A DNA stretch of 64,000 nt, taken from NCBI RefSeq assembly GCF_016862215.1, contig NZ_BOMN01000136.1:1-64000 (forward strand), written 5' to 3'. Below are positions 10,700 to 57,600 of the stretch, in pieces. The stretch's first letter is position 1; each line of letters starts with the position of its first letter. The DNA comes from Winogradskya humida. Its GTDB lineage: Bacteria > Actinomycetota > Actinomycetes > Mycobacteriales > Micromonosporaceae. The position numbers and the translations under genes are program-made. The notes under the pieces were generated by a model that saw only the letters and a list, made by a program, of their open reading frames with translations, was not told the DNA's origin and did not search any database.

Positions 10700-11458
10700 T
10701 CAGACGGTCGCGGCGGCGAGGTGCTGGCTGATCAGGGTGGTGATCGCGGGCTGGTGGGCGGTCAGGTAGAAGTGGCCGCCGGGGAAGGTTCGCAGGTCGA
10801 AGCCGCCGGTGGTGTGGGCCGCCCAGGCGCGGGCCTCGTCGAGGGTGACCCGGGGGTCGTTGTCGCCGGTCAGGGCCACGATCGGGCAGGTCAGTGGCGG
10901 GCCTGGCCGCCAGCGGTAGGTTTCCGCGGCGGTGTAGTCGCCGCGGATCGCGGGGAGGATCATCTCCAGGAGGTCGGGGTTGGCGAGGATCTGCTGGTCG
11001 GTTCCGCTGAGGGTGGCGAGCTCCCGGACGAGGCCGTCGTCGTCGCGCTGGTGGACGGTGTCCTCCTCACGGTGCCGGGACGGCGCCCGGCGACCGGAGG
11101 CGAACAGTGCCACCGGGGCGATTCCCGCGACGGTGCGCATCCGCTCGGCGACCTCGAAGGCCACGGTGGCGCCCATGCTGTGGCCGAGGAACGCGAGCGG
11201 CTCGTCCATCAGCGGGCGCAGCGACTGGAACGCTCCGTCGGCGAGGGCACCGATGGTGGTCAGCGGCGTCTCCCGCCAGCGGTCCTGCCTGCCGGGGTAC
11301 TGCACCGCGACCACCCGTACGGTCGATCGCAGCGCCTCGGACACGGCATGGAAGAAGCTGGCAGATCCGCCGGCGTGCGGGAAACAGACGAGGGTGACGC
11401 GGCTGTCCGGGTGATGGTCGAACCGGCGGATCCACAAGTCGTCAGCGGGCTCGGTCAT
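10700..11458 (-). CDS. Type II thioesterase (alpha/beta hydrolase)
   Basis: A 252-residue stand-alone thioesterase of the kind that edits PKS/NRPS carrier domains by removing stalled acyl groups. Visible are the N-terminal VCFPHAGGSASFF motif, the nucleophile elbow GHSMGA, the catalytic Asp region in VALTGDNDPRV and the catalytic His in FPGGHFYL. Length and motifs are standard. It lies about 22 kb from the PKS/NRPS genes in this window, so whether it serves that line or another is open. Confidence 0.92.
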   Translation of the reverse strand: MTEPADDLWIRRFDHHPDSRVTLVCFPHAGGSASFFHAVSEALRSTVRVVAVQYPGRQDRWRETPLTTIGALADGAFQSLRPLMDEPLAFLGHSMGATVAFEVAERMRTVAGIAPVALFASGRRAPSRHREEDTVHQRDDDGLVRELATLSGTDQQILANPDLLEMILPAIRGDYTAAETYRWRPGPPLTCPIVALTGDNDPRVTLDEARAWAAHTTGGFDLRTFPGGHFYLTAHQPAITTLISQHLAAATV

Positions 11459-11477
11459 CGGCCGAGTCTGCCACAGG

Positions 11478-12812
11478 TCAGTTACGGGTGTAGACGACGC
11501 CGAGCTTGTCGAGTTCGTCGCCGGCGCGGCCGTGGAAGGCGGTGATGTGCCAGCCGGTCGGGGCGGTGAAGGTGGTGCAGTCCGAGGTGGTGGTGCCGCC
11601 GGCGAGGGTGCGGCCGAGGGTGGTGGTCCAGCGGGCGTAGAAGATGCGGGTGGTGTCGCTGTACGAGCCCCGGCACAGGTACAGCGATGACAGGTGCTCG
11701 CCCGTCGCGAGGGTGAGTGTGGACTCCGTGCCGCCGGTGCCGCCGTGGGCGTACGTCAGGCCGGTGGAGAGGGTGGTGGCGATCCGGTCGACGCGGGTGC
11801 CGGCGCGCAGGGCGACCGCCGTGACCCGGCCCGTGGCCGGGACGGTGGCGACGTCGGTGAAGTAGGTGCCGTGGGGGCCACCGAACTGGTCGCTCAGTTG
11901 CAGGGCGGTGTTCGTGGACCAGGAGAAGCCGGCCGTGACCGGGTCGTGGTCCGAGAGCATGAGCCCCGACGAGGTTTCCAGGAACTTCGCGTGCTCGTTG
12001 TTGAACGCCGTCGCCGACAGGTTCACCAGGCGGCTCCCGCGATAGAGGACCTTGTCGACGGTTTCGCAGGCGTTGGTGGTCGCCGCCGGGTCGCACACCA
12101 GCGCGTCGCTGCCGGCGGCCGGGGCGGAGCCGGCGCGGATCAGCTGGACCCAGGCGTCGGTGAGGCCGTTGGCCGACACGAAGCCACGGATAGTGTCCGC
12201 GGCCCGGGTGTAGCGGGTGTTCGTGTCGCCCATGACGATGACCGCGTTGCCCGCCGAGTGGGTGGCGATGACGCTGGTCAGCTGGGCGAGGTTGTCGGCG
12301 CGGGAGGTCTGGTCGCCGCTGGTCGTGCCCGCGTTGGTGTGCAGGTTGTAGACGTCGACGTAGACGCCCTCCGCGAGGCGTACCCGCTGGAAGGTGTAGC
12401 CCTTCGGGGTGAGGCAGTCGCCCGAGTCGAGCTGGCAGGAGTTCCACCGGCCGCGTTCGAAGTCGTCCACGTCGTACGCGTTGCCCGACAGGGTGTTGAG
12501 ACCGCTGCCGATGCCCGCGCCGCCACTGGTCGGCGTGCGGTACGGGTGGGCGTCCTCGGCGTAGAGATAGCTGTGGTAATTGAAGTCTTCCTGGACCGTG
12601 ACGAGGTTGTACGCGGCGATGCGCCGGCCGATCGTCGTCGTGCTCGACTGGCGGGGCGTCGGCGCGCTGGACAGCCCCTCGGGCAGGCCGGCGATGTTGT
12701 AGGAGAGCACGGAGAACGTGCCCGTGGCGGCGGAGGCGGGGGAACTGGTGACGGCGAACGTCGCGGCGAGGGTCAGGCCCACCGCCGCGACGCTGCTGAG
12801 GACACGGCGCAT
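11478..12812 (-). CDS. Secreted endonuclease/phosphatase-fold protein with jacalin-like C-terminus
   Basis: A 444-residue exported protein. The signal peptide (MRRVLSSVAAVGLTLAATFA, ending ASA-A) is followed by an endonuclease/exonuclease/phosphatase domain: FSVLSYNIAGLPEG, the QEDF metal-binding Glu, VYNLHTNAG, MGDTNTRY and the terminal SDHDPV. The fold is shared by DNase I and neutral sphingomyelinases. The last 135 residues (QFGGPHGTYFTD, FHGRAGDELDKLGVVY) look like a jacalin-type sugar-binding domain. I start at the ATG at 12812, where the signal peptide begins; the upstream open frame is the shadow of the neighbouring gene. An AT-rich TCTATAAAG lies about 10 nt upstream. Role as nuclease or phospholipase is not resolved. 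Confidence 0.87.
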   Translation of the reverse strand: MRRVLSSVAAVGLTLAATFAVTSSPASAATGTFSVLSYNIAGLPEGLSSAPTPRQSSTTTIGRRIAAYNLVTVQEDFNYHSYLYAEDAHPYRTPTSGGAGIGSGLNTLSGNAYDVDDFERGRWNSCQLDSGDCLTPKGYTFQRVRLAEGVYVDVYNLHTNAGTTSGDQTSRADNLAQLTSVIATHSAGNAVIVMGDTNTRYTRAADTIRGFVSANGLTDAWVQLIRAGSAPAAGSDALVCDPAATTNACETVDKVLYRGSRLVNLSATAFNNEHAKFLETSSGLMLSDHDPVTAGFSWSTNTALQLSDQFGGPHGTYFTDVATVPATGRVTAVALRAGTRVDRIATTLSTGLTYAHGGTGGTESTLTLATGEHLSSLYLCRGSYSDTTRIFYARWTTTLGRTLAGGTTTSDCTTFTAPTGWHITAFHGRAGDELDKLGVVYTRN

Positions 12813-12901
12813 ACCGCGTACTTTATAGATTGAATTTGATCGATTGAAGAACGTCGGGGGCAGTGCGTGTCGCCGGGCGGTGACGCCGGCACTGACCCCG
12901 A

Positions 12902-14044
12902 TCAGTACGAGAAGGGGTCGTAGCCGTCGTTGTTGCAGGTGCGGCGCTGGACGATGCAGTTCTTCGTGCGCTGGTTCATGGCGTTGACGTCCCACATGAC
13001 GAAGGCGTCGCCGTGCATCGAGGAGGCGCTCTTGCCGGCCGGGTCGGAGGAGAGGTAGTAGCCGGCCTTGGAGCCCTTGACGCCGTACTGGATCTCGAAG
13101 GTGAGGCTGGGGATCTTCACCGGGTGGTCGGCGGGGCAGGCGTTGCCGGAGCCGTACGCCACATGGTCCTTGTGGTTGGGGCTGTCCAGGTGCTTGCCGT
13201 CCCAGCAGTCCGGGAACCGCAGCGTGAAGTGCAGGGTCGCGTCGCCGCCGCAGATGGGCCAGTTGCCGTTGGTGCTGCGGGCGACGCCGTCGATGTCGCC
13301 GGGGCCGTAGAAGGCGCAGTAGAACTGGCCCTGCGCGCCACGCGGGGTGGGTTCCTTCTTCTTCGCGTCGCCGGAGATCATGCGCAAGCCATTCGGCATC
13401 GGCATCTGACCGGCCGAGTTGTTCTGCAGGGAACGGTAGTAGACGCGGAAACCCGTGGTCTCGACCGGCTTCTTGGTCGCGTTGTCGTAGAGCGTCGGCA
13501 CCCAGTAGGCGGAACGGTCCTTGACCGGCTTGCACGTGGTCGCCGTGAACTTCGTCAGATCCGCGGTCCGGGTGTCCGCGTCGACGGCCTTGTTGCCGAC
13601 GAAGGAATGCATGTGCGACGCGCCGGGCAGGCCGGGGAACACGATCGGGTCGTCCGCGAGCCGGTGGCTGTACTTGCAGTCGGCCCGGAATTCGGGGAGG
13701 TTGCCGGCGTCGGCCGGAGGCGGGTCGGCCTTCGTCGCCTTGAACGCGGCGACCTGCTTGCGCCACGCGTCGCCGACCGGGATCCAGCCGTTGACGGCTT
13801 CCGCCTCGGGTGTCGGTTTCGGCTTCGGCTTCGGCTTCACCGATGGGGAAGGCGAAGTGCTGGGCATCGTTGAGACTGCGGCCGAGGGCAGAACAGAAGG
13901 CACAACCGATGGCTCCGCGTACGCGGAAGCACCAACCGCCGCGTCCGACGGCGCGGAACTGGTCGCCGAGCCGGAGCAGGACGCCAGGCCCGCCGCGACG
14001 ATGACAGCGACAGCGATCCCCGCGCCGGTTCTACCTCGAGACAC
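12902..14044 (-). CDS. DUF1996 lipoprotein
   Basis: A 380-residue exported protein. The N-terminus has a hydrophobic stretch and lipobox (AAGLASC), so it should be lipidated and surface-anchored. A Ser/Pro-rich linker with a KPKPKPKPT run from a hexanucleotide repeat near 13815-13840 follows. The rest is a DUF1996 domain: EFRADCKYSHRLADDPIVFPG, ASHMHSFVG, DRSAYWVPTLYD, CWDGKHLDSPNHKDHVAY. The ribosome site AGGGGAG (14056-14050) abuts a GTG at 14050 but stands 5 nt from the GTG at 14044, so I choose 14044. DUF1996 proteins are secreted and common in fungi and actinomycetes; the function is not established. Confidence 0.85.
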   Translation of the reverse strand: MSRGRTGAGIAVAVIVAAGLASCSGSATSSAPSDAAVGASAYAEPSVVPSVLPSAAVSTMPSTSPSPSVKPKPKPKPTPEAEAVNGWIPVGDAWRKQVAAFKATKADPPPADAGNLPEFRADCKYSHRLADDPIVFPGLPGASHMHSFVGNKAVDADTRTADLTKFTATTCKPVKDRSAYWVPTLYDNATKKPVETTGFRVYYRSLQNNSAGQMPMPNGLRMISGDAKKKEPTPRGAQGQFYCAFYGPGDIDGVARSTNGNWPICGGDATLHFTLRFPDCWDGKHLDSPNHKDHVAYGSGNACPADHPVKIPSLTFEIQYGVKGSKAGYYLSSDPAGKSASSMHGDAFVMWDVNAMNQRTKNCIVQRRTCNNDGYDPFSY

Positions 14045-32464: not shown

Positions 32465-33115
32465 ATGTCCGCAGTGATTGAGGTGCAGCACCTGAACAAG
32501 AGCTTCGGCGACCTCGTGGCGGTCGAGGATGTCTCCTTCACCGTCGAGGAGGGCGAGATCTTCGGGATCGTCGGCCCCCGCGGCTCCGGGAAGACCACGA
32601 TCGTGGAGTGCCTCGAGGGCCTGCGCGCCCACGACAGCGGCAGCATCCAGGTGCTCGGCCGCGATCCCCGCCAGGAGCGGGCCGAGGTCACCCGGCGGAT
32701 CGCCGACCGGTTGCAGGACGGCCGGCTGCCCGACCGGCTGGCGGTCGCCGAGGCCCTGACGCTGTACGGCTCGTTCTACCGCGACCCCGCCGACTGGCGG
32801 GAGCTCATGGCCGCGCTCGGGCTCACCACCTCGTCCCGGACCCGCGAGGGGGCCGGCACCAGCAGCAGCCGGCACCGGCTGTCGGTCGCGTTCGCCGACG
32901 TGGGCCGACCGCAGGTGGCGGTGCTCGACGGGCTCACCACCGGGCAGGACCCGCGGTCCCGGCGTGAGACCTGGGCCGCGGTCGAATCCGTTCGAGCCAG
33001 CGGCGTCACGATCCTGCTGGTGACACCGTTCCGGGCGGAGGCCGAGCAGCTGTGCGACCGGGTCGCGCTGATGGATCGGGGGCGGCTGACCGTTACCGGC
33101 CCGCCGGCGCGGTGA
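32465..33115 (+). CDS. Degenerate, truncated ABC-ATPase-like protein
   Basis: A 216-residue paralogue of the drug-export ATPase at 3515 (shared ALxLYxSFYRDPADWREL and ECLEGLRAHDSGSI). The Walker A is kept (GPRGSGKTT) but the other catalytic motifs are lost. The LSGGQ signature is replaced by GTSSSRHR. Walker B ends LDG instead of LDE (Gly codon 32930-32932). The switch His is Pro (VTPFRAE, codon 33026-33028). The C-terminal DUF4162-like domain of about 90 residues is absent. No permease is adjacent. The frame is intact and has its own ribosome site (AAGGGA) and promoter-like block, so it is either a decaying gene or a non-hydrolytic regulatory relic. Its end overlaps the convergent NRPS by 23 nt. 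Confidence 0.8.
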   Translation: MSAVIEVQHLNKSFGDLVAVEDVSFTVEEGEIFGIVGPRGSGKTTIVECLEGLRAHDSGSIQVLGRDPRQERAEVTRRIADRLQDGRLPDRLAVAEALTLYGSFYRDPADWRELMAALGLTTSSRTREGAGTSSSRHRLSVAFADVGRPQVAVLDGLTTGQDPRSRRETWAAVESVRASGVTILLVTPFRAEAEQLCDRVALMDRGRLTVTGPPAR

Positions 33116-36100
33116 GCAGGTCCTGAACGCGGGTGGCCAGGCCCCTCGGGGTCGGCTGCTCGAAGATCTCCCCCAGACCCAGCGAGACGCCGCTCAGGTT
33201 CTGCAGTTCCTGCAGCGCCCAGGCGGCCAGCATGGAGTTGCCGCCGGACTCGAAGAAGTTCGTGTCCGCGGTGATGTCCTCGCGCTGCAGGATGGTCCCC
33301 CACAGGGTGGTCAGCCGGCCGGTCAGCTCGTCGTCGAGGCCGGCCCCGCTCAGCTCCAGCGGGGCGCTCACGGCCTGCGCCCGCCGCTCGGCGACCAGCC
33401 GTTCCAGAGCGGGATAGTCGACCTTCCCACTGCCGTTGATCGGCATGGCTTCCACCGTCACCAGGTCACCGGGCAGCATCGACCGGGACAGCTGGGCACG
33501 GGCATGGCTCCGGACGCTGTCGAGATCGAGCGTGCTGGCGGCAGCTTCCAGACATCCGATGAGTACGGCGTCCGCGCTCGGATCCCCGATCATGACCACG
33601 GCCGCCGCGCCGACCTGCGGGTGCGCCAGCAACGTCGCCTCGATCTCGCCCAGTTCGATCCGGTTGCCGCGCAGTTTCACCTGCCGGTCACTACGGCCGA
33701 ACAGGTCGAGGACGCCGTCCGCACGCCACCGGGCCACGTCGCCCGTACGGTAGAACCTGCCGTACCGGGGGTGTTCGCCGAACCGCTGCGCGGTGAGCTC
33801 CGGGCGGTTGTGGTAACCGATCGCCACGCCCACGCCCGCGATGCAGAGTTCGCCGCGCACGCCGATCGGCAGGTCATCGCCGTGCTCGTCGACGACGAAG
33901 ACCTGGGTGTTGGCGATCGGGGCGCCGACGTCGAGCCGGGCCCCGGACGTGTCGGTGACGATCCGCGACGTCGACCAGATCGTCGTCTCCGTCGGCCCGT
34001 ACACGTGGTGGAAGGCCGCGCCGGCCGCGGCGAGCCGCTGGGCCAGCCAGACGGGCACGATCTCACCGCCGGCCAGGACGGTACGCCCGCGCAGGCTCTC
34101 CCCCGCGCGGTCGATGACGAGGCGCCACGTCGTCGGCGTCGCCTGGACGAACCGCACGTCGTGGCGCAGCACCAGGTCGCGCAGCACCCGGCCGTCGCTG
34201 CGGGCCGAGTCCGGTGCGGGCACCAGGCTGCCGCCCGAGGCCAGCGGCACGAACAGTTCGAGGCCGGAGATGTCGAACGCGAACGTGGTCAGCCACAGCA
34301 TCGTGTCGGCGGCGGTCGCGGCGAGCTCGCCGGTGAAGTGCGCGATCAGGTTCGCCAGGGCGCCGTGGCTGACGAGCGTGCCCTTCGGGCGGCCGGTCGA
34401 GCCCGACGTGTAGATCAGATAGGCGCAGGCCGCGGGGTCGACCGGCGGGGCCGCGCTCGTTGCCGGGTCCGGGACGTCGGTCACGGGTGGTGGTGTCAGG
34501 ACCGTACGGTCGTCGGCGGCGTACCGCGCCAGGTCTGCGGTGGCGAGCAGGATCTTCGCCCCGGAGTCGGCCAGCTGGTAGCGGATCCGTTCCTCGGGGT
34601 GCGCGGCATCGATGGGGAGGTACGCAGCGCCCGCCAGCCACGCGCCGAGGACGGCCGCGGCCAGCTCGGCGCTGCGCGGGAGGGCGACCGCCACCACGTC
34701 GCCCGGTTCGACACCGGCGGCCCGGATGAGGCTCGCGAGGTGGTGGGCGGCGTTCCACAGCTGCCGGTAGCTGACCCGCTGGTCGCCGTCGATGACAGCG
34801 ACGGCGCCGGGCTGCCCGGTGACGCGGTCCTGGACGGCGTGCAGGACGGATCCGGGCTGCACGGGCCGGTCGGTGTTGTTGGCCGCGTCGATGACCTCGC
34901 GGTCACGGGGGCTCCACACCGGCACGTCGCCGACAAGCACGCCGGGGCCGGACGCGAACGACGCCAGCACCGCCTCGTACCGGGCGATCAGCAGTGTGGC
35001 GTCCGCCGCGTCGAACAGCTCGCTGCGGTAGACGGCCCGCACCTCGGCGGCGGTGCCCGTAACGGTGACCCGGAGGTCGAGGTCGAACTTGCTGAAACCT
35101 GGTTCGACCTCGACGCGCCGGGCCTGCATGCCACCGATCGGGAACTCGGCACGGCCGGTGCCGGGCAGCACCTCGAAGGCGTACCGGAAGGGGGTGGTCC
35201 GCCGGGCCGAACGGGGCCGCGGCAGGAGATCGGGATACGCGTCCACGGGTACGTCGGCATGCGCGACCGCCGTCCGCAGGGTGTCGGCGCTGCGCAGGAT
35301 CAGGTCGCGCACACTCTCGGCACGGTCGATCCGCACCCGCAGTGGCACATAGTTGACGTGGTAGCCGATCGCGCGGGCGCTCTCCGCGGGACGCACGTCG
35401 ACCGGGGAGCCGAGGACGAGATCCGGGTCGGCGCCGTGCGCTGCCAACAGGGCGTAGTACCCGGCCAGCAGGATCGCGGACTCCGGCACTCCCAGGTCGC
35501 TCCCCAGCCGCCGGACACCGGTCACGACATGCTCGGGCAGTGCGCGACTGACCTGCGCCGCCGCGAGGGTCGGCCGGTCCGGTTCCGGCGCCGCGCACTT
35601 CAGCTCGGAGCCGTCGACGGTTGCGCCCGCCAGCCGGGTACGCCAGAACTCCAGGCTCGGCGTACGCGGTGGCAGCTCAACGAGGGCCGCGACCGGCGCG
35701 AGGGCCTCGTGCGAGTACGCCGCCGCGATCTCCTCGAGAAACACCCCGGCGGACAACCCGTCGAGGACCAGCTCGTGGGCGGTGACGTGGAACGTGTCGC
35801 CGGCCAGCGCCGTCCGCAGCATGGGACCGCCGTTGAACTCGAACGGCGTGCCGGCGTCGTACGGAGCCTCGCCGAGCGTGAACTCGCCGGGGCTGAGCAC
35901 CCGCTTGACCAGCCGCATACCGTCGGCGCGGTAGACCGAGCGGAGCGCGTCGTGCCGCCCCAGCACCACGGCCAGCGCCGCGGCGAGCCGGTCCGGATCA
36001 AGCTCCCCGGCCACCGTGAACGCGGCCGACCGGTTGTTCACCGGTGTGCCGGGGGCCAGCGACTCGAGCAGCCACAGCGCCTCCTCCTTGCGGGAGACCT

Positions 36101-36125
36101 CGGCATAGTCGGCCTCAGAGATCAT
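33093..36125 (-). CDS. NRPS module C-A-PCP, Gly-like code, no TE
   Basis: A 1010-residue NRPS. The condensation domain (residues about 8-430) has HELVLDG where HHxxxDG is expected, so the second, catalytic His is Glu. The A domain (about 440-900) has intact cores (LIYTSGSTGRPKGT, FAFDISGLELF, VYGPTETTIW, YRTGDVARWRADG, GRSDRQVKLRGNRIELGEIE, NGSGKVDY). Reading the specificity pocket by the PheA numbering gives D-I-L-Q-V-A-V-I-W-K, closest to known glycine codes (DILQLGLIWK-like). The PCP has FFESGGNSMLA. There is no thioesterase or reductase at the end. Last gene of the long minus-strand operon; 15 nt after PKS-D. Release may depend on the separate thioesterase at 53775. Confidence 0.92.
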   Translation of the reverse strand: MISEADYAEVSRKEEALWLLESLAPGTPVNNRSAAFTVAGELDPDRLAAALAVVLGRHDALRSVYRADGMRLVKRVLSPGEFTLGEAPYDAGTPFEFNGGPMLRTALAGDTFHVTAHELVLDGLSAGVFLEEIAAAYSHEALAPVAALVELPPRTPSLEFWRTRLAGATVDGSELKCAAPEPDRPTLAAAQVSRALPEHVVTGVRRLGSDLGVPESAILLAGYYALLAAHGADPDLVLGSPVDVRPAESARAIGYHVNYVPLRVRIDRAESVRDLILRSADTLRTAVAHADVPVDAYPDLLPRPRSARRTTPFRYAFEVLPGTGRAEFPIGGMQARRVEVEPGFSKFDLDLRVTVTGTAAEVRAVYRSELFDAADATLLIARYEAVLASFASGPGVLVGDVPVWSPRDREVIDAANNTDRPVQPGSVLHAVQDRVTGQPGAVAVIDGDQRVSYRQLWNAAHHLASLIRAAGVEPGDVVAVALPRSAELAAAVLGAWLAGAAYLPIDAAHPEERIRYQLADSGAKILLATADLARYAADDRTVLTPPPVTDVPDPATSAAPPVDPAACAYLIYTSGSTGRPKGTLVSHGALANLIAHFTGELAATAADTMLWLTTFAFDISGLELFVPLASGGSLVPAPDSARSDGRVLRDLVLRHDVRFVQATPTTWRLVIDRAGESLRGRTVLAGGEIVPVWLAQRLAAAGAAFHHVYGPTETTIWSTSRIVTDTSGARLDVGAPIANTQVFVVDEHGDDLPIGVRGELCIAGVGVAIGYHNRPELTAQRFGEHPRYGRFYRTGDVARWRADGVLDLFGRSDRQVKLRGNRIELGEIEATLLAHPQVGAAAVVMIGDPSADAVLIGCLEAAASTLDLDSVRSHARAQLSRSMLPGDLVTVEAMPINGSGKVDYPALERLVAERRAQAVSAPLELSGAGLDDELTGRLTTLWGTILQREDITADTNFFESGGNSMLAAWALQELQNLSGVSLGLGEIFEQPTPRGLATRVQDLLTAPAGR

Positions 36126-48673: not shown

Positions 48674-49777
48674 TCAGGCCACGCCGTTGACGCGCAGGGC
48701 CAGATCGGCGGCCAGTTCGGGCGAACTGACCTGCATGGTGGTGGCGCCGTCACGCCGCTCCGGCACCAGGTGCAGGCGCTGGACGCGGTCGTCGGCCAGC
48801 GGGTCGAGCCCGCCGACGCAGTCGCAGGGGTCGCCGGTGAACCCGGCGAACCGGTAGGCGATGTCCATCATCCGGTTGCGGTCGGTCGGCTTGAAATCCG
48901 CGACCAGGTGCGCGCCGGCCTGCGCGGCCTGGTCGATCAGCCAGTTCAGCAGCACCGAACCGGCGCCGAACGTCACCACCCGGCACGAGGTGGCGAGCAG
49001 CTTGAGGTTCCACACGTCGCGGTGGCAACCCAGCAGCAGCACGCCGACCGCCCCGTGCGGGCCGAACTTGTCGGTGAGCGTGACGGTGAGGACCTCGTGC
49101 CCGGGGTCGGCCAGGAGCTCACGCAGCGTCGCGTCGGAGTAGTGCACCCCGGTCGCGTTCATCTGGCTGGTCCGCAGCGTCAGTTCCTCGACCCGGGACA
49201 GGTCGTCCTCGTCGGCCCGTTTGATCGCCATGACGAGGTCCAGGCTGCGCAGGAAATCCTCGTCGGCGCCCTTGAAGTTGTCCTTCTCGGCGTCGCGGCG
49301 GAAACCGGCCTGGTACATCTCGCGGCGCCGCCGGGCGTCGACGGTCACGACCTCCGGGCTGAACTCGGGCAGGCCGGTCAGCGAGGTCGCCTGATCGAAC
49401 GCGTAGCAGCGCACCTCGGGCAGGTGGTAGTTCACCTCGGCGCGCTCGGTGGGCAGGTCGTCGATGAACGCGATCGTGCTCAGCGCGAAGTTGAGCCGCT
49501 CGGCGATCGTCGTGACCGCGTCGGATTTCGGGCCCCAGCTGATCTGCGGGTGCACGAAGTACTCGGCCAGGCCCAGCTTCTCCAGGTGCCCCCAGGCCAG
49601 GTCGAAATCGTTCTTGCTGGCGACCGACTGCAGGACACCGCGGGCATCGAGCTCGATGACCGCCTCCCGGATCCCGGGCAGCAGCTCGACCGAGGGGTCC
49701 TCGGACAGCGTGCCGTTCCAGACCGTGTTGTCGAGGTCCCACACCAGGCATTTGACGATGGTCGGTTTATCCGCCAC
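48674..49777 (-). CDS. fkbH: FkbH-like HAD-superfamily glyceryl transferase
   Basis: A 367-residue FkbH homologue. It dephosphorylates 1,3-bisphosphoglycerate and loads the glyceryl group on a discrete ACP, the first step to hydroxymalonyl- or methoxymalonyl-ACP. The HAD motif DLDNTVWNGTL is at residue 14, motif II/III regions include SVASKND and FIDDLPTERAEV. The Cys of ATSCRVVTFG near residue 290 matches the conserved Cys of the acyl-transfer half. GTG start at 49777 with GGGAG 6 nt upstream. Followed by PKS-D after an 83-bp gap; preceded by the ACAD gene. The neighbouring FkbI-, FkbJ- and FkbK-like genes make the pathway assignment firm. Confidence 0.93.
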   Translation of the reverse strand: MADKPTIVKCLVWDLDNTVWNGTLSEDPSVELLPGIREAVIELDARGVLQSVASKNDFDLAWGHLEKLGLAEYFVHPQISWGPKSDAVTTIAERLNFALSTIAFIDDLPTERAEVNYHLPEVRCYAFDQATSLTGLPEFSPEVVTVDARRRREMYQAGFRRDAEKDNFKGADEDFLRSLDLVMAIKRADEDDLSRVEELTLRTSQMNATGVHYSDATLRELLADPGHEVLTVTLTDKFGPHGAVGVLLLGCHRDVWNLKLLATSCRVVTFGAGSVLLNWLIDQAAQAGAHLVADFKPTDRNRMMDIAYRFAGFTGDPCDCVGGLDPLADDRVQRLHLVPERRDGATTMQVSSPELAADLALRVNGVA

Positions 49778-49789
49778 AGGGTTCTCCCG

Positions 49790-50899
49790 TCATCCCGTGA
49801 TGGACAGCGCGTGCTCGGCCAGGATGAGCTGGCAGATCTCGTTGCTGCCCTCAATGAGCTCCATGAGCTTCGCGTCGCGATACGCCCGGGCCACCACGTG
49901 CCCGTCCTGGGCACCGGCCGACCCGAGCAGTTGCACGGCCGTGGCCGCGCTGCCGGCGGCGTGCCCGGCGCTGGTGTGCTTGGCCAGGACCGCCATGACG
50001 GCCATGTCCGGTGACCCGGAATCCCACGAGCGGCTCGCGTGTTCGCAGATCCGGGTCGACGTCTGTTCGGCGATGAGCAGCTCGGCCAGGTGCCGCCGGA
50101 CGAGCTGGTGCTCGGCGAGCGCCACCCCGCCCTGGGTCCGGTTCCTGGTGTGCGTGCCCGCGGCCTGCAGACAGGCCCGGATGATGCCGGCACAGCCCCA
50201 GGCGATGGACATCCGGCCGTACGACAGGGCCGTGGTGAACAGCATCGGCAGGGACTGTCCCCCGCCGCCCAGCACGGCCGACGCGGGGAGCCGGATGCCG
50301 GTGAAGCGGACGTTCGCGTGCCCGGCGGCCCGGCAGCCCATCGGATCGGCCACCAGGTCGATCTCCAGGCCCGGCGAGTCCACCGGGATCATGGCCGCCG
50401 CGGCGGCGTCACCGTTGCGGCCCAGGATCAGCAGGTAGTCGGCGTAGCGGGCGCCGGTGAGCCACTTCTTCTCGCCGTTGACGACGAACCCGTCGCCGTC
50501 CGGCTCGATGCTGGTCTCCATCGAGGACAGGTCACTGCCGGCGCCCGGCTCGCTGAACCCGACCCCGGCCAGCTTCCCGCTGGTCAGCTCCGCGAGGTAG
50601 TGCCGGCGCTGGGCGCGGTCACCGAACCGCTGGACGGTGTACGCCACGATGCCCTGCGACGTCATGATGCTGCGCAGGGAGCTGTCGAGGCTGCCGGCGT
50701 ACGCCGTGAATTCGCCGTTGTCCTGGCTGGTCGCCCCGAGCCCGCCGAACGAGGCCGGGACCTGCGCGCACAGCAGCCCGCGGGCGCCGGCCTTGTGGAG
50801 CAGATCGAGCGGCAACTCCCCCGCCAGGTCCCAGGCACCCGCCCGGTCGCCGATGAGCTCGCCGAGGAAGGCGCGCTCGTCGGCGAGTGGCTCAGGCAT
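49790..50899 (-). CDS. fkbI: FkbI-like acyl-ACP dehydrogenase
   Basis: A 369-residue acyl-CoA-dehydrogenase-fold flavoprotein. It shows GVGFSEPGAGSDLSSMET and VNGEKKWLTGARYADYL (FAD and substrate contacts), AWGCAGIIRACL, and the end ELIEGSNEICQLILAEHAL, with the region equivalent to the EGTxxI motif. In methoxymalonyl-ACP pathways FkbI oxidises the alpha-hydroxy aldehyde-level intermediate on the ACP together with FkbK. The start overlaps the ACP gene by 8 nt. Distinct from the unrelated flavin oxidoreductase at 15122. Confidence 0.9.
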   Translation of the reverse strand: MPEPLADERAFLGELIGDRAGAWDLAGELPLDLLHKAGARGLLCAQVPASFGGLGATSQDNGEFTAYAGSLDSSLRSIMTSQGIVAYTVQRFGDRAQRRHYLAELTSGKLAGVGFSEPGAGSDLSSMETSIEPDGDGFVVNGEKKWLTGARYADYLLILGRNGDAAAAAMIPVDSPGLEIDLVADPMGCRAAGHANVRFTGIRLPASAVLGGGGQSLPMLFTTALSYGRMSIAWGCAGIIRACLQAAGTHTRNRTQGGVALAEHQLVRRHLAELLIAEQTSTRICEHASRSWDSGSPDMAVMAVLAKHTSAGHAAGSAATAVQLLGSAGAQDGHVVARAYRDAKLMELIEGSNEICQLILAEHALSITG

Positions 50900-51182
50900 C
50901 GCCGGCCGGGTCGTCGGCGTCCTTGAGCCGCAGCACCAGCGCGGTCATCGACTCGACCGTGCGGAAGCTGTCGAGCTTGAGGTCGGGGCCGACGATCGCG
51001 ATGTCGTAGGCCTCCTCGAGGTGCACGACGAGCTGCATGGCGAACATCGAGGACACCAGGCCGGAGCTGAAGAGGTCCTGCTCCGGCTCCACCGTGGTCT
51101 TGATGCGTTCGGCGAGGAAGCCGAGCAGTTCGTGCCGGATGGTCTCGGCGGTGGCCGCCGAGGTCGTCGATTCCGCCGTCAT
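50892..51182 (-). CDS. fkbJ: Discrete acyl carrier protein, FkbJ-like
   Basis: A 96-residue ACP. The phosphopantetheine Ser is in DLFSSGLVSSMFAMQL near residue 45; the GLVSS context is typical for FkbJ-type carriers, unlike the GFDSL of the PKS modules. It should carry glyceryl and then hydroxymalonyl units. ATG overlaps the stop of the dehydrogenase gene (ATGA); its stop lies inside the FkbI-like gene. Confidence 0.92.
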   Translation of the reverse strand: MTAESTTSAATAETIRHELLGFLAERIKTTVEPEQDLFSSGLVSSMFAMQLVVHLEEAYDIAIVGPDLKLDSFRTVESMTALVLRLKDADDPAGDA

Positions 51183-52045
51183 GACGCGCCCTTTGCGTAG
51201 TTGTAGAAACCTTCTCCGGACTTACGGCCCAGGTGGCCGTCCCGCACCTTCTGCAGCAGCAGGTCGCAGGGGTTGCAGCTCTCGTCGCCGCGGCGTTCGT
51301 AGAGCACGTTAAGCGAGTCGACCAGGTTGTCCAGGCCGATCAGGTCACCGGTGGCCAGCGGCCCGGTCGAGTGCCCGAGGCACCCTTCGAGCAGGCCGTC
51401 CACGTCCTCCACCGAGGCGACGCCCTCCTGCACGAGCATGGCCGCCGTATTGATGAGCGGGTGCAGGAGCCGGTTGATCACGAAACCGGCCGAGTCGTTG
51501 ATGACGATCGACTGCCGGCCGAGCACGCTCAGCAGGTCGGTCACGGCCGTGACCAGAGCGGGATCGGTACGCGGCCCGCGGATCACCTCGACCATCTTGA
51601 TCAGGTACGACGGGTTCATGAAGTGCACCCCGACGAGATCCGCGGGACGCTCGACCCACTCGGCCATCTCGTCGATCGGGATGCAGGACGTGTTGGAGAT
51701 CAGGATGGTGCCGGGGCGCACGAGTTTCGACGCCGCGCTGAGCACCTTCTCCTTGGCCTCGGCGACCTCCGTGACCGCCTCGACCACGGTGGTGGCGTCG
51801 GCGATGTCATCGAGCGACAGGGTGGTCGTCAGCGTGCCCGGTGTGCGGCCGGCCGGGAGCACGCCCATCAGCTGGGCGTGCCGCAGCTTCTGCTTGACGG
51901 TGGACCGGGCGGCTTCCAGCACGGATTCGTCGACGTCCACCAGGACGACGGGTACCCCGTGGCCGAGGGCCAGTGCCGAGATGTTCGTACCCATCACGCC
52001 GGCCCCGACGACGGCGAGGCGGTGCTCCCCGAAATCAGTAGTCAT
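51179..52045 (-). CDS. fkbK: FkbK-like 3-hydroxyacyl dehydrogenase
   Basis: A 288-residue 3-hydroxyacyl-CoA dehydrogenase family protein. NAD-binding motif VVGAGVMGTNISALA at residue 11, then VVLVDVDES, EAVTEVAEAK, ISNTSCIPI (Ser/Cys site), GVHFMNPSYLIKMVEV (catalytic His), NDSAGFVINRLLHP. In methoxymalonyl-ACP pathways it oxidises the glyceryl hydroxyl on the ACP. ATG at 52045 overlaps the stop of the C-PCP gene; the longer open frame upstream is the shadow of that gene. Confidence 0.92.
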   Translation of the reverse strand: MTTDFGEHRLAVVGAGVMGTNISALALGHGVPVVLVDVDESVLEAARSTVKQKLRHAQLMGVLPAGRTPGTLTTTLSLDDIADATTVVEAVTEVAEAKEKVLSAASKLVRPGTILISNTSCIPIDEMAEWVERPADLVGVHFMNPSYLIKMVEVIRGPRTDPALVTAVTDLLSVLGRQSIVINDSAGFVINRLLHPLINTAAMLVQEGVASVEDVDGLLEGCLGHSTGPLATGDLIGLDNLVDSLNVLYERRGDESCNPCDLLLQKVRDGHLGRKSGEGFYNYAKGAS

Positions 52046-53778
52046 GGTCTCTTCCCTGGGTCTGTTTCCCGCAGCTTCGCGGCGAGCGCGGCCGGGGTGG
52101 GGTTCTCGAAAATGTCGGGCAGGGCGATCGGTATCCCGGTGAGATCCTCGATCCTCTGCGCCAGTACTGCCGCCAGCAACGAGTGACCACCGGCTTCGAA
52201 GAAGCTCGTACGGGCGGTCACCTCGGTGTTCAGGAGCTGGTGCCACACCTCGATCAGGTCCTGCACGAGGTCGTCGTCGGGCGCCGGTGCCGGCTCGGCA
52301 GCCGGGTCGCCGTGGGTGCCGGGGCCGGGCGGGGCCAGCCGCTCGATCGTGCCGTCGGGGAGCCTGCGGGCCTGTTCCCCGGTGTGGTGGAGCCGGTCCG
52401 GGGCATCCGCGGGGCCGGCCAGGCACAGTTCACCACGAAGCCCGGGCGGGAGCTCCCTGCCGTCGGGTGCGACGACGTAGCTCCGCGGGGCGTCCACGGC
52501 GGCCTTGTCGACGATCTCGCGGTCCAGGTCACTCCAGCCCGCGTATTCGAGCAGCGGCCGGTCGGCGTCCGCGGCGGCGGCGACCAGCAGCGCGTCGAAC
52601 CGGCGCTGCAACGCCTCGACGTCCGCCTCGCTCAGCACGTCGCGGGCGTAGCGGAACCAGATCTCCGACATCGAGGGCGTACCGACCAGTTCGAGGTCGA
52701 ACTTGCTGTACGGGTTGTCGACGGTCAGCAGCCGGGCCGGCATGCCGTCGACGGACAACTCGCCCAGCGACGCCGCCGGCAGGTAGTTGAACAGGTGCTG
52801 GAAGAGCGCGGACTGCCACGCGGACCCGACACCGGGAAGCTCACCGGTGAGGTCGTCCACGGACACGTCGGCGTGTGCCATCGCGCCGAGGAACGCGTCG
52901 CGGGCCTGGCGGGTCAGCACCCGGAAACCGGCGGCCAGGTCGACCTGGATCCGCAGCGGGACCACGTTGACGTGATAGCCGATGCCCGCCGGGTTGGTGC
53001 CCCGGACGTCGACCGGGGAGCCGATGACGAGGTCGGGCCCGGCGCCGTGCGACGCGAGCAGGGCGCTGTAGGCGGCGAGGAGCACCGCGGCCACGGGCGC
53101 CCGCGCCACGCGCTGCAGGCTCGACAGTGCCCGCTGGGCCTCCGGGGAGAGCGCGCGGCGTGCGTTCCCGCCGCTCATCACGGGTTGCCGGCCACGCGGG
53201 GCGCCGCACCACAGGTCGAGGTTGCCCGGTGTGTAACCGCGCAGCGTCTCGCGCCAGTAGGTGAGGTCCGCCGGCCGTGGCGCGGTCTCGGTGACCGGCT
53301 GCGCCGACGCCGCGGCGGGAATGGGCAGCCCACCGCAGATCGCGTCGTAAACGGGAATGAATTCCCGCATGAAAAGGGCCATGGAGACCATGTCGAACGT
53401 TAGGTGATGCACGACGACACAGAAAACGTCACCGTCGGTACGGCTGGCATGCCCCGCCCGCAGCAAAGGCTCGCCGGTGAACGGGAAAGGCCGGTCGGCA
53501 AATGTGGTCAGATCGGTTCCCAGCGGCTCGATCTGCACCTCGAACTCGCCCGTGCCGACGATTCGCTTGGACAATTCCGCGCCGCCGGTGGACTCAAATA
53601 CCGTCCGGAGCACCTCGTGCCGGGCAAGCAGAATGGTCAGCGCGGCGCGCAACGCCTGAGGATTCAGCCGGCCGGTCACCTGAAAGGCGAGCCCGAGATT
53701 GTTGATCCCGGTGCCGGGGACGATCCGCTCGAGCAGCCACAGCGCTTTTTCCTTACCCGACGCGACGGCTACGCTCAT
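52042..53778 (-). CDS. C-PCP protein with adenylation-domain relic
   Basis: 578 residues. The condensation domain (about 1-420) keeps HHLTFDM (HHxxxD, with Met for the usual Gly). The PCP at the end has FFEAGGHSLLAAV near residue 525. Between them (about 430-490) a short stretch aligns with the A8-A9 region of the A domain in the NRPS at 33093: VVAPDGRELPPGLRGELCLAG against VVDEHGDDLPIGVRGELCIAG, then HTGE for RTGD and LPDG for RADG. The rest of the A domain (ATP-binding cores, pocket, catalytic Lys) is missing. The protein therefore looks like a C-A-PCP module after a large internal deletion whose PCP must be charged in trans. Start ATG overlaps the thioesterase stop (ATGA). Confidence 0.88.
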   Translation of the reverse strand: MSVAVASGKEKALWLLERIVPGTGINNLGLAFQVTGRLNPQALRAALTILLARHEVLRTVFESTGGAELSKRIVGTGEFEVQIEPLGTDLTTFADRPFPFTGEPLLRAGHASRTDGDVFCVVVHHLTFDMVSMALFMREFIPVYDAICGGLPIPAAASAQPVTETAPRPADLTYWRETLRGYTPGNLDLWCGAPRGRQPVMSGGNARRALSPEAQRALSSLQRVARAPVAAVLLAAYSALLASHGAGPDLVIGSPVDVRGTNPAGIGYHVNVVPLRIQVDLAAGFRVLTRQARDAFLGAMAHADVSVDDLTGELPGVGSAWQSALFQHLFNYLPAASLGELSVDGMPARLLTVDNPYSKFDLELVGTPSMSEIWFRYARDVLSEADVEALQRRFDALLVAAAADADRPLLEYAGWSDLDREIVDKAAVDAPRSYVVAPDGRELPPGLRGELCLAGPADAPDRLHHTGEQARRLPDGTIERLAPPGPGTHGDPAAEPAPAPDDDLVQDLIEVWHQLLNTEVTARTSFFEAGGHSLLAAVLAQRIEDLTGIPIALPDIFENPTPAALAAKLRETDPGKRP

Positions 53779-54620
53779 GACGCCGGGAATTCGGCGTGTT
53801 CCTCCAGGACCGCGACCGCCGAGTCCGAGCGCATCAGATCAGCGTGGCCGACCTCGAGCGCGAACCTGCTGCCGATCACCTTGGCGGCGTTCACCACGGT
53901 GGTGTCGCCGCGGCTCTCCATCAGCGCGAAGTCGGTCGACGTGATCGCGAGCGATCGCTTCCAGATCTCCGTCGGGTCGACCTGCGCGGCGGCTGCCAGC
54001 CAGGTCATGTACGACTCGAACAGCTGGACCACCTCGTCGAGGCGGGACTCGGCGAGGCCGATCCGCTTGAACGCGATCGCGGCCATCTCGCGGTAGAGCC
54101 CGACGATCTCGATGGCGGCGTCGAACAGGCCGCCGGAGTGCGTCTCGACGATCCGGGTGGCGCTCTGCCGGGCACTCTCCGCCTCGGCGGCGGTGAAGAT
54201 CGGACCGGCCATGCCGATCATCTTGTGCATCTCCATGGCGAGCAGCTGGCTGTCGGTGAGCTGCGGGTCGAACAGGATCACCCGCGGCTCGGTGCTCTGG
54301 AACGCGGCGAGCCGGCCCGCGACCTCCGCGGCGTAGACGCTGCCGACGCAGTAGCCGAGCACGGCCACCACCTCGTACTTCTCCCACTCGCCGTCGCGCA
54401 TCCAGTGCTCGGTGTAGAAGTCACCGGACGGCCGCTCGGTCACCCGCACCGGCGGCGGGACGGTCTGCAGGAAACCCAGGCCGGACCAGGCCGTTCCCAT
54501 TTTGGCCGCGAGCTCGCCGAAACCGGCTTCGTTCCGGCCGGCCGCGGGAAAGTCGACGGCCAGCACAATACGGTTCGACTCGGGCGCGGAGATGACGCTC
54601 CAGGAGTTCGGATTCGGCAC
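53775..54620 (-). CDS. Stand-alone thioesterase with Cys nucleophile elbow
   Basis: A 281-residue alpha/beta-hydrolase-like protein of the thioesterase superfamily. The elbow reads VLGYCVGSVYA, so the nucleophile position holds Cys instead of Ser (codon 54348-54350). Other visible parts are RVILFDPQL after strand 6 and a late His in LEVGHADLM that could complete the triad. GTG start at 54620, 45 nt after PKS-C. Because neither the NRPS nor the PKS genes here end in a TE, this may be the chain-release or acyl-transfer enzyme. Cys-type TEs are known from lines that make strained or acyl-transferred products, but the reaction here is unknown. Confidence 0.75.
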   Translation of the reverse strand: MPNPNSWSVISAPESNRIVLAVDFPAAGRNEAGFGELAAKMGTAWSGLGFLQTVPPPVRVTERPSGDFYTEHWMRDGEWEKYEVVAVLGYCVGSVYAAEVAGRLAAFQSTEPRVILFDPQLTDSQLLAMEMHKMIGMAGPIFTAAEAESARQSATRIVETHSGGLFDAAIEIVGLYREMAAIAFKRIGLAESRLDEVVQLFESYMTWLAAAAQVDPTEIWKRSLAITSTDFALMESRGDTTVVNAAKVIGSRFALEVGHADLMRSDSAVAVLEEHAEFPAS

Positions 54621-54665: not shown

Positions 54666-57600
54666 TCAGACAGCCGGGGAATCGTTGTGGGGAAGCGCCG
54701 CCGACAATTGCGCCCAGAGGAAGTCCGCGATGGCGACCGGTGAATAGAAGTCATAGATGAAACCCTCGGGCAAGTTTACGCCGGTCCGTTCGCTGATGCT
54801 TTCTCTCAGTTGAACGGCCAGCATGGAGGTCATGCCCATCTCGAACACGTCACCGTCGCCGGGAACCCAGTCGAGCGAGTCGTATCCGAGCATCTCGGCG
54901 ATGCCCTCACGGACCAGCCGGCGCATCAGTTCCTGCTGTTCGGCGGGGTCGAGCCCGTCCAGCTGACGCATCCATTCGCGGGCTCCGGGCGCCTCGGTGG
55001 CCTCCGCCGGTGTGCCGGGCTCCTGCCCGCGCCACTGCGAGAGCTTCGCCAGGACCGTGCCGAGCGGCGTGTCCTCGTTCAAGTGCCCGGCCAGCCCGAG
55101 CAGTCCGGCGAGGGCGGACATGTCCCCGCCGTCCACGGCGGCCCAGAACTTTCGTTCCCGGTCGGAGGAGGAGGGGCGCTGTACGGGGATCGTCGGCCAG
55201 TAGCGCTGGCGCTGGAACGCGTACGTGGGAAGGTCGACCTTGCGTCCCCCGGCGAGCACGGCGGCCCAGTCCACGGTGGTGCCCTGGACGTGGACCGTGG
55301 CCAGGCTGGTCAGGAACGCCTGCAGGCCGGTACCGGCGCGGTCCAGGGCTCCGGTCACCGTCCGGGTGGCCCCGTCCGGTGCGTGGTCGGCGAGCACCTT
55401 GGCGATGCGGTCGCTCAGCACCGGTTCCGGGCTGAGCTCGACATAGCCGCCGATGCCCGCGCCGGCCAGCGCCAGCACGGTCTCGGTCCACTGCGGGTCG
55501 TCCCCGGCGCCGAGCCACCAGGCGGCATCCAGCTCGGCGTCGCCGACCGGGGCGGCGTCCCGGGTGGAGTACATCGCAATCGTGCCCGGCCTGACCCGGA
55601 TGCCCGTGAGCTCCGAGCCGCTGGCCAGGGAGACGGCGATCCGGGCGGCGTCGGCGGGGGTGAGGATGCCGGCCACCTGTGCGGCAGCCACCTCGCCGGG
55701 ACCGTCACCCGCGACCGCGGCGGGGTGTACGCCCGCCGCCCGCCACATGGCCGCCAGCGAGACGAGGACCGCCCACAGCACGGGCTGCAGCACCTCGACC
55801 CGCTCGACGGCCGGGCCCCGCAGCACCTCGGTGAGCGACCAGTCCACGAGCGGCGCGAGCGCCTGTTCGCACTCGGCCATCCGCGCCGCGAACACGGGCG
55901 AATCGTCCAGCAGGGACGCCACCGAGCCGGGCCACCCGGCGTCGCTGCCGGGGAACACGAACGCGAGCTTCTGCTCCCCCGCCGCGGTGCCGGTCACCAC
56001 GTCCTTCGCCGCCACACCCGCCGACATCACGGCCAGCTCACCGAGCAGGCCGGCCCGGTCGCCACCCAGCACGACCGCCCGGCGGTTGAACACCGTCCGC
56101 GTGGTGGCCAGCGACAGGGCGACGTCGAGAGGGTCCAGCTCCGGTCGCTCGACGAGGAATTCGCGCAACCGGGTCGCCTGCGCCTGCAGGGCCTGGTCGG
56201 TGCGGGCCGACAGCGTCCACGCCACCACCTGCGGCCGCGGCTGCGGTGCGGGGCCGCCCGGCTCGGCAACCGGTGGTGCCTCTTCCACGATGACGTGGGC
56301 GTTCGTGCCGCTGATGCCGAACGAGGACACACCCGCCCGCCGCGGCCGTCCGGTGGCGGGCCACGGCACGGATTCCGTCAGCAGCCGGACGTCCCCGGCG
56401 GTCCAGTCCACGTGCGGCGACGGCTCGTCCGCGTGCAATGTCTGCGGGATCCGGCCGTGCCGCAACGCCAGCACCATCTTGATGACACCGGCGACACCGG
56501 CCGCGGCCTGGGTGTGCCCGATGTTCGACTTGACCGAGCCGAGCCACAGCGGCTGATCCTCCGGACGGTCCTGACCGTACGTCGCCAGCAGCGCCTGTGC
56601 CTCGATCGGGTCACCCAGCGTCGTGCCGGTCCCGTGCGCCTCGACGACGTCCACGTCACCGGCCGAGAGCCGCGCGTTCGCGAGCGCCGAGCGGATCACC
56701 CGCTGCTGCGCGGGGCCGTTCGGGGCGGTCAGGCCGTTGGAGGCACCGTCCTGGTTGAGCGCGCTGCCCCTCAGCACCGCGAGGACCTGGTGGCCGTTGC
56801 GGCGGGCCTGCGACAGCCGCTCCACGACGAGCATGCCGGCGCCCTCGGAGAACCCGGTGCCATCGGCATCGGCCGAGAACGCCTTGCAGCGCCCGTCCGT
56901 CGACAGCCCGCGCTGGCGGGAGAACTCGATGAACGTGCCCGGGGTCGCCATGACGGTCACGCCGCCGACCAGCGCGAGCGAGCATTCGCCGGCCTGCAGC
57001 GCCTGCGCGGCGAGGTGCAGGGCGACCAGCGCCGACGAGCAGGCCGTGTCGACCGTCATCGCCGGGCCTTCCAGGCCGAACGCGTACGACAGCCGGCCCG
57101 ACAGGATGCTGGTCGCGACGCCGGTCATCAGGTGCCCGCCGACCTCGGTGCCGTCGGCGATGACGCCCTGCTCGTACCCGGAGGTGTAACCGCCCACGAA
57201 CGCGCCGGTCTGGCTGCCGCGCAGCGTCGCCGGGTCGATGCCGGCCCGTTCGAACGCCTCCCAGGAGAGTTCCAGGAGCAGCCGCTGCTGCGGGTCCATG
57301 GCGAGCGCCTCGCGGGGGCTGATCTCGAAGAAGCCGGCGTCGAACGCGCTGGCGTCCGTGACGAACCCGCCCGACTGCGTGTACGAGGTGCCCTGGTTGG
57401 TGGCGTCCGGGTTGTAGAGGGCCTCGAGGTCCCAGCCACGGTCGGCGGGGAACTCGGAGATGGCGTCCTCCCCCGCGTCGAGCAGGCGCCACAGGTCCTC
57501 CGGGCCCGTCACGCCGCCCGGGAAGCGGCAGCTCATCCCGACGATCGCGATCGGATCGTCGGCGAGTGCCAGCGCCGGGGTCGCCGGCACCGCCGCGGCG

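Follow-up and report, generated by a model that had tools for sequence, protein, structure and literature searches.

The 64,000-nucleotide stretch of Winogradskya humida DNA analysed here (contig NZ_BOMN01000136.1; hereafter the window) encodes an NRPS protein in which a condensation (C) domain and a PCP domain are joined by a short linker where an adenylation (A) domain would be expected. This raises the question of where the linker came from and which A domain would supply the carrier.

The linker of M1 is a relic of an adenylation domain

The protein, which we call M1, has the following parts; genes were called by codon GC bias, so start codons are uncertain.

52042-53778, minus strand: M1, C-(A relic)-PCP protein, 578 aa (Pfam C and PCP; orthologues in 7 further genomes)
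52528-53757, minus strand: C domain of M1 (C1), HHLTFDM at residues 124-130 (Pfam; HHxxxD in 7/7 orthologous clusters)
52327-52485, minus strand: A-domain relic of M1, A6 part 52411-52485, A7 part 52327-52395 (profile against shuffles; orthologues with full-length pseudo-A)
52063-52278, minus strand: PCP of M1 (PCP1), GGHSLL, Ser533 at 52180-52182 (Pfam; GGHSLL in 7/7)

Pfam places Condensation at residues 13-417 and PP-binding at residues 507-567, and gives no AMP-binding match in M1 of the window at E<=0.001; the relic is also invisible to Pfam at E<=0.1 in M1 of two genomes with related clusters, G445 and G076. Two segments of the linker, residues 432-456 (RSYVVAPDGRELPPGLRGELCLAGP, window 52411-52485) and residues 462-484 (RLHHTGEQARRLPDGTIERLAPP, window 52327-52395), align with the A6 (GELCIAG) and A7 (YRTGD) regions, respectively, of a second NRPS encoded from 33093 and of its homologues. 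Scored against a profile built from 55 A domains with a preserved P-loop motif, the linker (418-507) reached 27.7 bits, compared with a maximum of 9.2 bits when the same linker was shuffled 20,000 times, and the G445 linker reached 24.7 bits. Most of the score came from the A6 part; the A7 part alone gave no separate match in the window and 2.6 bits in G445, so the A7 assignment draws on collinearity and on the orthologues. Four of these orthologues hold a complete pseudo-A domain at the same place, which relates the linker to A domains. Judged by its sequence, the 53-residue stub in the M1 linker is an A-domain relic.

The initial annotation had read the linker at 52320-52485 as what remains of a C-A-PCP module that lost most of its A domain. 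The profile scores and alignments confirm the relationship, the pseudo-A orthologues support the loss, and the coordinates agree with ours to within a few bases; its motif label, A8-A9, was wrong, the alignment identifying the two parts as A6-A7 in the numbering that we assume. The pseudo-A orthologues also speak against a linker that is conserved yet unrelated to A domains. A second complete A domain in a corrected sequence was not found either: in G445, a single-contig assembly from the same genus, a similar stub lies in an open frame, so an A domain hidden by sequencing error is unlikely. The reciprocal decay of M2, the cyclase-like neighbour and the dead AT of the terminal PKS module, described below, go beyond the initial annotation.

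Related clusters show graded loss of the adenylation domain

M1 was found together with the second NRPS (M2), a cyclase-like gene and methoxymalonyl genes in seven clusters, namely those of the window, G445, G076, Streptomyces cellostaticus, Kitasatospora humi, K. aureofaciens and Actinomadura violacea, the methoxymalonyl genes of A. violacea lying on M1's contig without adjoining M1. An eighth M1, from Streptomyces sp. FH025 (L075), is cut by a contig end and stands outside all counts of seven. M1-like C domains were sought in overlapping genome samples: 11 of 397 genomes of the order had a match at E<=1e-40 and 2 of 67 of the window's genus at E<=1e-60 (own genome included in both), as did 19 of 80 of G076's genus at E<=1e-60 (G076 included), 16 of 354 and 35 of 390 in two families at E<=1e-75, and 1 of 394 of the class at E<=1e-115, this one being the window's own. 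A contig scan with the single M1 protein returned no relative; with an eight-sequence C-domain alignment, 80 of 100 relatives were kept, and a cyclase-like gene was present in the examined stretch of 72 of these 80 loci (counted by eye).

Within the seven clusters, loss of the M1 A domain is graded. M1 measures 991-1031 residues in S. cellostaticus, both Kitasatospora species and A. violacea, and its AMP-binding region is still recognised by Pfam. None of these four full-length pseudo-A domains retains the P-loop, A5, A8 or A10 motif, and all four carry TGE for TGD; their P-loop variants read YASAPDGEPVA, HTCGEAGQPVA and similar, and they keep 0.56 of 192 columns conserved in working domains. 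In G076, little beyond the part from A6 onward (the C-terminal half of A) is left, with the A10 Lys changed to Ser, and in G445 and the window the A6-A7 stub alone is left. HHxxxD of C1 is kept throughout.

A tree of eight concatenated protein segments from the seven clusters placed G076 with Kitasatospora and the window and G445 with S. cellostaticus, every labelled node having UFBoot 100; it was rooted on A. violacea in line with the larger C and A trees (0.985 and 0.977). This tree rejects one shared loss of the A core for G076 and the window lineage, as do AU tests, in which the three constrained trees tried, placing G076 with the window and G445, gave p-AU values of 2.8e-10, 4.0e-36 and 8.6e-07. 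C1 alone leaves the place of G076 unsettled (support 0.293). Together, the concatenated tree and the AU tests imply that the dead A core of M1 was removed on at least two occasions, barring gene movement between clusters. As an origin of the M1-M2 pair, the simple tandem duplication of a single module found no support: the C and A trees recover M1 and M2 as each monophyletic and not as sisters; only the PCP tree joins them, with a support of 0.144. M1 and M2 may thus be two modules that were brought together.

M2 keeps a complete adenylation domain beside a decaying condensation domain

33093-36125, minus strand: M2, second NRPS, (C)-A-PCP, 1010 aa (Pfam; motifs; pocket DILQLGVI)
35757-35777, minus strand: decayed C motif of M2 (C2), HELVLDG
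33414-34880, minus strand: A domain of M2 (A2)
33129-33317, minus strand: PCP of M2 (PCP2), GGNSML

The P-loop, A5, A8, A10 and TGD motifs are intact in M2 of all seven clusters, and its A domains keep 0.93 of the same 192 conserved columns, close to the 0.94 kept by ordinary modules. At E<=1e-40, M2 holds the sole A domain found on the 88 kb contig, past which the cluster may extend. Its pocket in the window, read by motif anchors, is DILQLGVI, a string assigned to glycine in the available text of the nocamycin paper (PMC5466765). The pockets of G445 (DMVQLGCI, L049:6984-9272) and G076 (DMVQIGAI, L025:10377-12665) depart from this glycine code, and these are the same two M2 proteins that lack the N-lobe of the C domain.

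HHxxxD of C2 is kept in one of the seven clusters, S. cellostaticus, where the motif reads HHLIFDG and alone retains the second His. HE or HQ replaces it in four (Glu in the window, Gln in both Kitasatospora species and A. violacea), and M2 of the remaining two, G445 and G076, lacks the motif-bearing N-lobe and gets no Condensation match from Pfam. According to the available part of a review (PMC11546977), C domains can in some cases remain active with an altered second His, so HE and HQ are no proof that C2 is dead; the missing N-lobes are stronger evidence of its loss than the His changes. The initial annotation had offered the NRPS at 33093 as a possible source of A activity for PCP1. This proposal is strengthened by the finding that its A domain is the only one found on the contig at E<=1e-40 and that its own C domain is decaying. 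Direct acyl transfer onto PCP1, the other route that had been suggested, found no support here.

Constraint differs between the two modules

The Ser of both carrier motifs is kept in all seven clusters. PCP1 reads GGHSLL in each of them, and PCP2 reads GGNSML in five, GGSSML in one and GGHSML in one. The motif His is therefore N or S in PCP2 of six of the seven clusters, against His in 40 of the 45 modules whose A and C motifs are intact (Fisher p 0.00014, an optimistic value because the tips are related).

Across 264 pairs of ordinary modules, C was less conserved than A by a mean of 8.5 points (sd 5.2). C1 was more conserved than A1 by 9-15 points in 6/6 pairs, and the 10 pairs for M2 showed C2 to be less conserved than A2 by 6-21 points, only a modest excess over the ordinary mean. 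A simple Nei-Gojobori count between the window and G445 gave dN/dS values of 0.29 for C1 and 0.21 for PCP1, which are rough at synonymous distances of 0.5-0.9.

The neighbourhood of M1 suggests a polyketide-tetramate assembly line

53775-54620, minus strand: Dieckmann cyclase-like protein, 281 aa, NcmC type (phmmer to NcmC 6e6t, E 2.9e-27)
48674-52045, minus strand: methoxymalonyl-ACP genes (Pfam and NCBIfam; homologues in all 7 clusters)
51179-52045, minus strand: FkbD-like member
50892-51182, minus strand: ACP member
49790-50899, minus strand: FkbI-like member
48674-49777, minus strand: FkbH member
54666-57100, minus strand: terminal PKS module KS-AT(dead)-ACP, expected donor to C1 (motifs; KS from the active-site region on)
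57039-57041, minus strand: KS Cys of this module
55692-55709, minus strand: AT motif GDGPGE
54825-54827, minus strand: ACP Ser

The cyclase-like gene adjoins M1, the methoxymalonyl genes flank M1 on the opposite side, and both are present in all seven clusters. The 281-residue protein had no Pfam or NCBIfam match at E<=0.001. Its match to NcmC, the nocamycin Dieckmann cyclase, with Cys, Asp and His aligned, places it by homology with the NcmC/TrdC type and predicts cyclase activity. This resemblance makes a glycine-derived tetramic acid the probable product.

The PKS ends beside the cyclase gene. Its terminal module keeps the KS Cys and the ACP Ser in 7/7 clusters, and its AT is without the Ser of GHSxGE in 7/7 (window, G445, G076, L072, L073, L074 and L076), so the extender unit may come in trans; a pattern search of the module found no KR motif. 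As a control for the AT, GHSxG was sought after the last KS motif at 18 loci with a PKS frame upstream of an NRPS (4 without a KS motif) and was present in 18/18 of these loosely chosen frames.

A type II thioesterase-like gene (CFPHAGGSA) lies at window 10700-11458, about 22 kb from M2. By motif, such genes occur in the window, G076 and K. humi, and none was seen in the stretches examined of the other four clusters. It is possible that this gene encodes a proofreading or shuttle enzyme, or that it is unrelated. In the A-less modules of WS9326A and legonindolizidine, the shuttle is a type II thioesterase by which the aminoacyl group is moved. No shuttle enzyme was identified in the clusters examined.

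A glycine module probably split over two proteins

From the motifs kept and lost, the phylogeny and the neighbourhood, all of them observations at the level of sequence, we infer each catalytic step, which amino acid is used and how it gets to PCP1. We propose, with a probability of about three in four, that M1 and M2 form one functional glycine module, split over two proteins by complementary decay. M1 would give an apparently working C domain and PCP, with a dead A domain, and M2 an apparently working glycine-type A domain and PCP, with a dead or dying C domain. A2 would activate glycine and load PCP2; glycine would then pass to PCP1, transfer from PCP2 being a likelier route than direct loading; C1 would couple glycyl-PCP1 to the beta-ketoacyl chain supplied by the last PKS module; and the tetramic acid would be released by the NcmC-type cyclase.

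Several points stand against this proposal: the pockets of G445 and G076 deviate, the drop in C2 conservation is modest, M1 and M2 are not sisters, C2 of S. cellostaticus keeps its motif, HE and HQ may leave C2 active, the search for a shuttle enzyme identified none, and the cluster may extend past the contig.

In one variant of this proposal, A2 would load PCP1 directly in trans, with PCP2 as a leftover. PCP1 does carry a common acceptor motif, GGHSLL, and trans A domains serving A-less C-PCP proteins are known from WS9326A (PMC7539972, available text), but this variant is doubtful in our view, as the Ser of PCP2 is kept in 7/7 clusters even though C2 of the same protein decays. The available text on bripiodionen (PMC10956176) points the same way. 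That pathway uses BpdC (C-A-T with a silent A domain) and BpdD (A-T); Ser-to-Ala changes in either T domain gave no product, mutating the silent A domain of BpdC did not abolish it, and transfer between the T domains was proposed. The pair thus needs both T domains, and by analogy the retention of both PCPs here would fit a bripiodionen-like transfer better than direct loading.

The presence of A2 and PCP2 in one protein, and the kept PCP2 Ser, would also suit a scheme in which C1 acts in trans on glycyl-PCP2, so that chain assembly takes place on M2, with no acceptor role for PCP1. We consider this quite improbable, given the strong constraint on PCP1 (dN/dS 0.21, window against G445) and the invariance of its GGHSLL motif, from which PCP2 departs in six clusters of seven. 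It is more improbable still, to the point of being hard to credit, that M1 is a gene in decay and that glycine is added by M2 alone, as happens in ordinary tetramate clusters: the C, A and PCP motifs of S. cellostaticus M2 are all intact, its HHLIFDG meaning that M2 could still work alone there, but the second His of C2 is lost in four of the seven clusters and the N-lobe in two, and C1 and PCP1 are under constraint (dN/dS 0.29 and 0.21).

A possible structural role for the stub

A further explanation concerns why any of the A domain remains in M1, and holds that the stub is kept as a small folded beta piece covering the surface where the A domain met C. The A6 block does stand out: in the four full-length pseudo-A domains it keeps 0.88 of its 14 conserved columns compared with 0.56 overall, the best of all blocks with at least 5 conserved columns, and between the window and G445 its dN/dS is 0.37 over 24 codons. 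The A7 part gives 0.93 over 22 codons in the same comparison, and the stub is absent from other cyclase-linked C-PCP proteins (G393, L145).

AlphaFold2 bears on both sides of this question. A first model of M1, based on 38 sequences of which nearly all contained the A region, reached a mean pLDDT of 88.7 and predicted strands at 433-436, 448-454, 463-472 and 478-481; with such A-containing relatives, the stub is modelled as beta strands with a block pLDDT of 76-95. When A sequences were left out of the alignment, the stub was unfolded, with a block pLDDT of 26-46 at residues 431-480. Several solved C-A structures align with the M1 model to residue 485, in an alignment known as a range (first and last residue only) and to a model that drew on A-domain sequences. 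Because the first model folded and the control did not, the folded stub was moved from main claim to alternative, and we now regard it as unlikely.

Comparison with known systems

The working logic proposed for M1 and M2 is already known from bripiodionen. According to the available text, the BpdC/BpdD/BpdE system of Streptomyces reniochalinae LHW50302 (the strain of L147) shares a silent A domain, a second protein with working A and T domains, intact T domains in both proteins, a free-standing TrdC/NcmC-type cyclase and a tetramate product, which is predicted here. As described there, BpdC (900 aa) keeps a long silent A region, whereas M1 in the window keeps a stub, and BpdD is an A-T protein for Asn, whereas M2 is a C-A-PCP protein that belongs to M1's family and combines a glycine-type pocket with a C domain in decay. 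Like BpdC, M1 combines an HHxxxD C domain and a PCP with a silent A domain, whose motifs are erased in 4/4 full-length M1 proteins and whose core is absent from the other three; like BpdD, M2 supplies intact A motifs and a PCP Ser in 7/7 clusters. M2 is not an A-T protein free of a C region, as it has a C domain in 5/7 clusters (decayed in four) and a remnant in two, and the pair would therefore work like a BpdC/BpdD pair without being classed as one.

Nocamycin (NcmB, NcmC) and tirandamycin share the cyclase type, the pocket string DILQLGVI, read as glycine in the accessible part of PMC5466765, and a PKS followed by one C-A-PCP step. Their step is performed by one intact C-A-PCP protein of the NcmB type; neither window protein holds intact C, A and PCP domains together, and here two proteins would share the step. 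In WS9326A, as far as the available text of PMC7539972 describes it, a C-PCP is likewise served by the A domain of another protein, as we propose here; there, the trans A domains are separate genes of a peptide cluster, whereas here the donor, M2, is a former full module in a polyketide-tetramate line, and M1 shows a relic of its lost A domain.

A domains have been silenced elsewhere in the loci aligned here. Eleven of 71 other A regions are motif-poor (L091, L093, L103, L113, L121, L131, L133, L139, L143, L144 and L147), and a separate A protein of 564-596 aa adjoins ten of these eleven C-A-PCP proteins (all but L143). A silencing in tetramate modules is hence not rare; the M1/M2 arrangement is.

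Two loci show other layouts. In Actinophytocola xinjiangensis (L145:9986-11473 and 11470-13224), a 495-aa C-PCP gene overlaps a 584-aa A gene by four bases, with a cyclase-like gene adjoining. In G393 (L023:10051-11658), a stand-alone C-PCP protein of 535 aa without an A relic is followed by a 1638-aa protein that starts with an A domain; this C-PCP protein shares 31.5% identity with M1 over residues 1-569.

Our literature search, which covered few subscription journals and used Actinoplanes as the only species-name query, found no paper on the cluster, and bripiodionen was the only close precedent; within the same limits, it returned no reciprocal C-A-PCP decay, graded series or repeated physical loss. 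What may be new is tentative: that two complete modules became mutually dependent through losses of opposite halves, each loss repeated across lineages, with A6 as a structural remnant. On this reading, in which we have less than even confidence, M1 would have shed its dead A domain on two or more occasions, and the changes that disabled the C domain of M2 would vary between clusters.

Implications

Split and A-less NRPS modules are known, and their origin is mostly inferred. The seven clusters show stages, from loss of A motifs through loss of the core to a stub on one side, and from a change of the catalytic His to loss of the N-lobe of C on the other, and such intermediate stages make the order of events testable by mutation. 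They also show how far an A domain can be eroded with C and PCP still under selection, a point of practical use to enzyme engineers. With the terminal AT dead in the same clusters, both ring building blocks may arrive in trans, and the analysis predicts an uncharacterised family of tetramic acids with a methoxymalonate unit. If the proposal is true, these clusters would document, naturally and in graded steps, the origin of A-less modules and trans-acting A domains.
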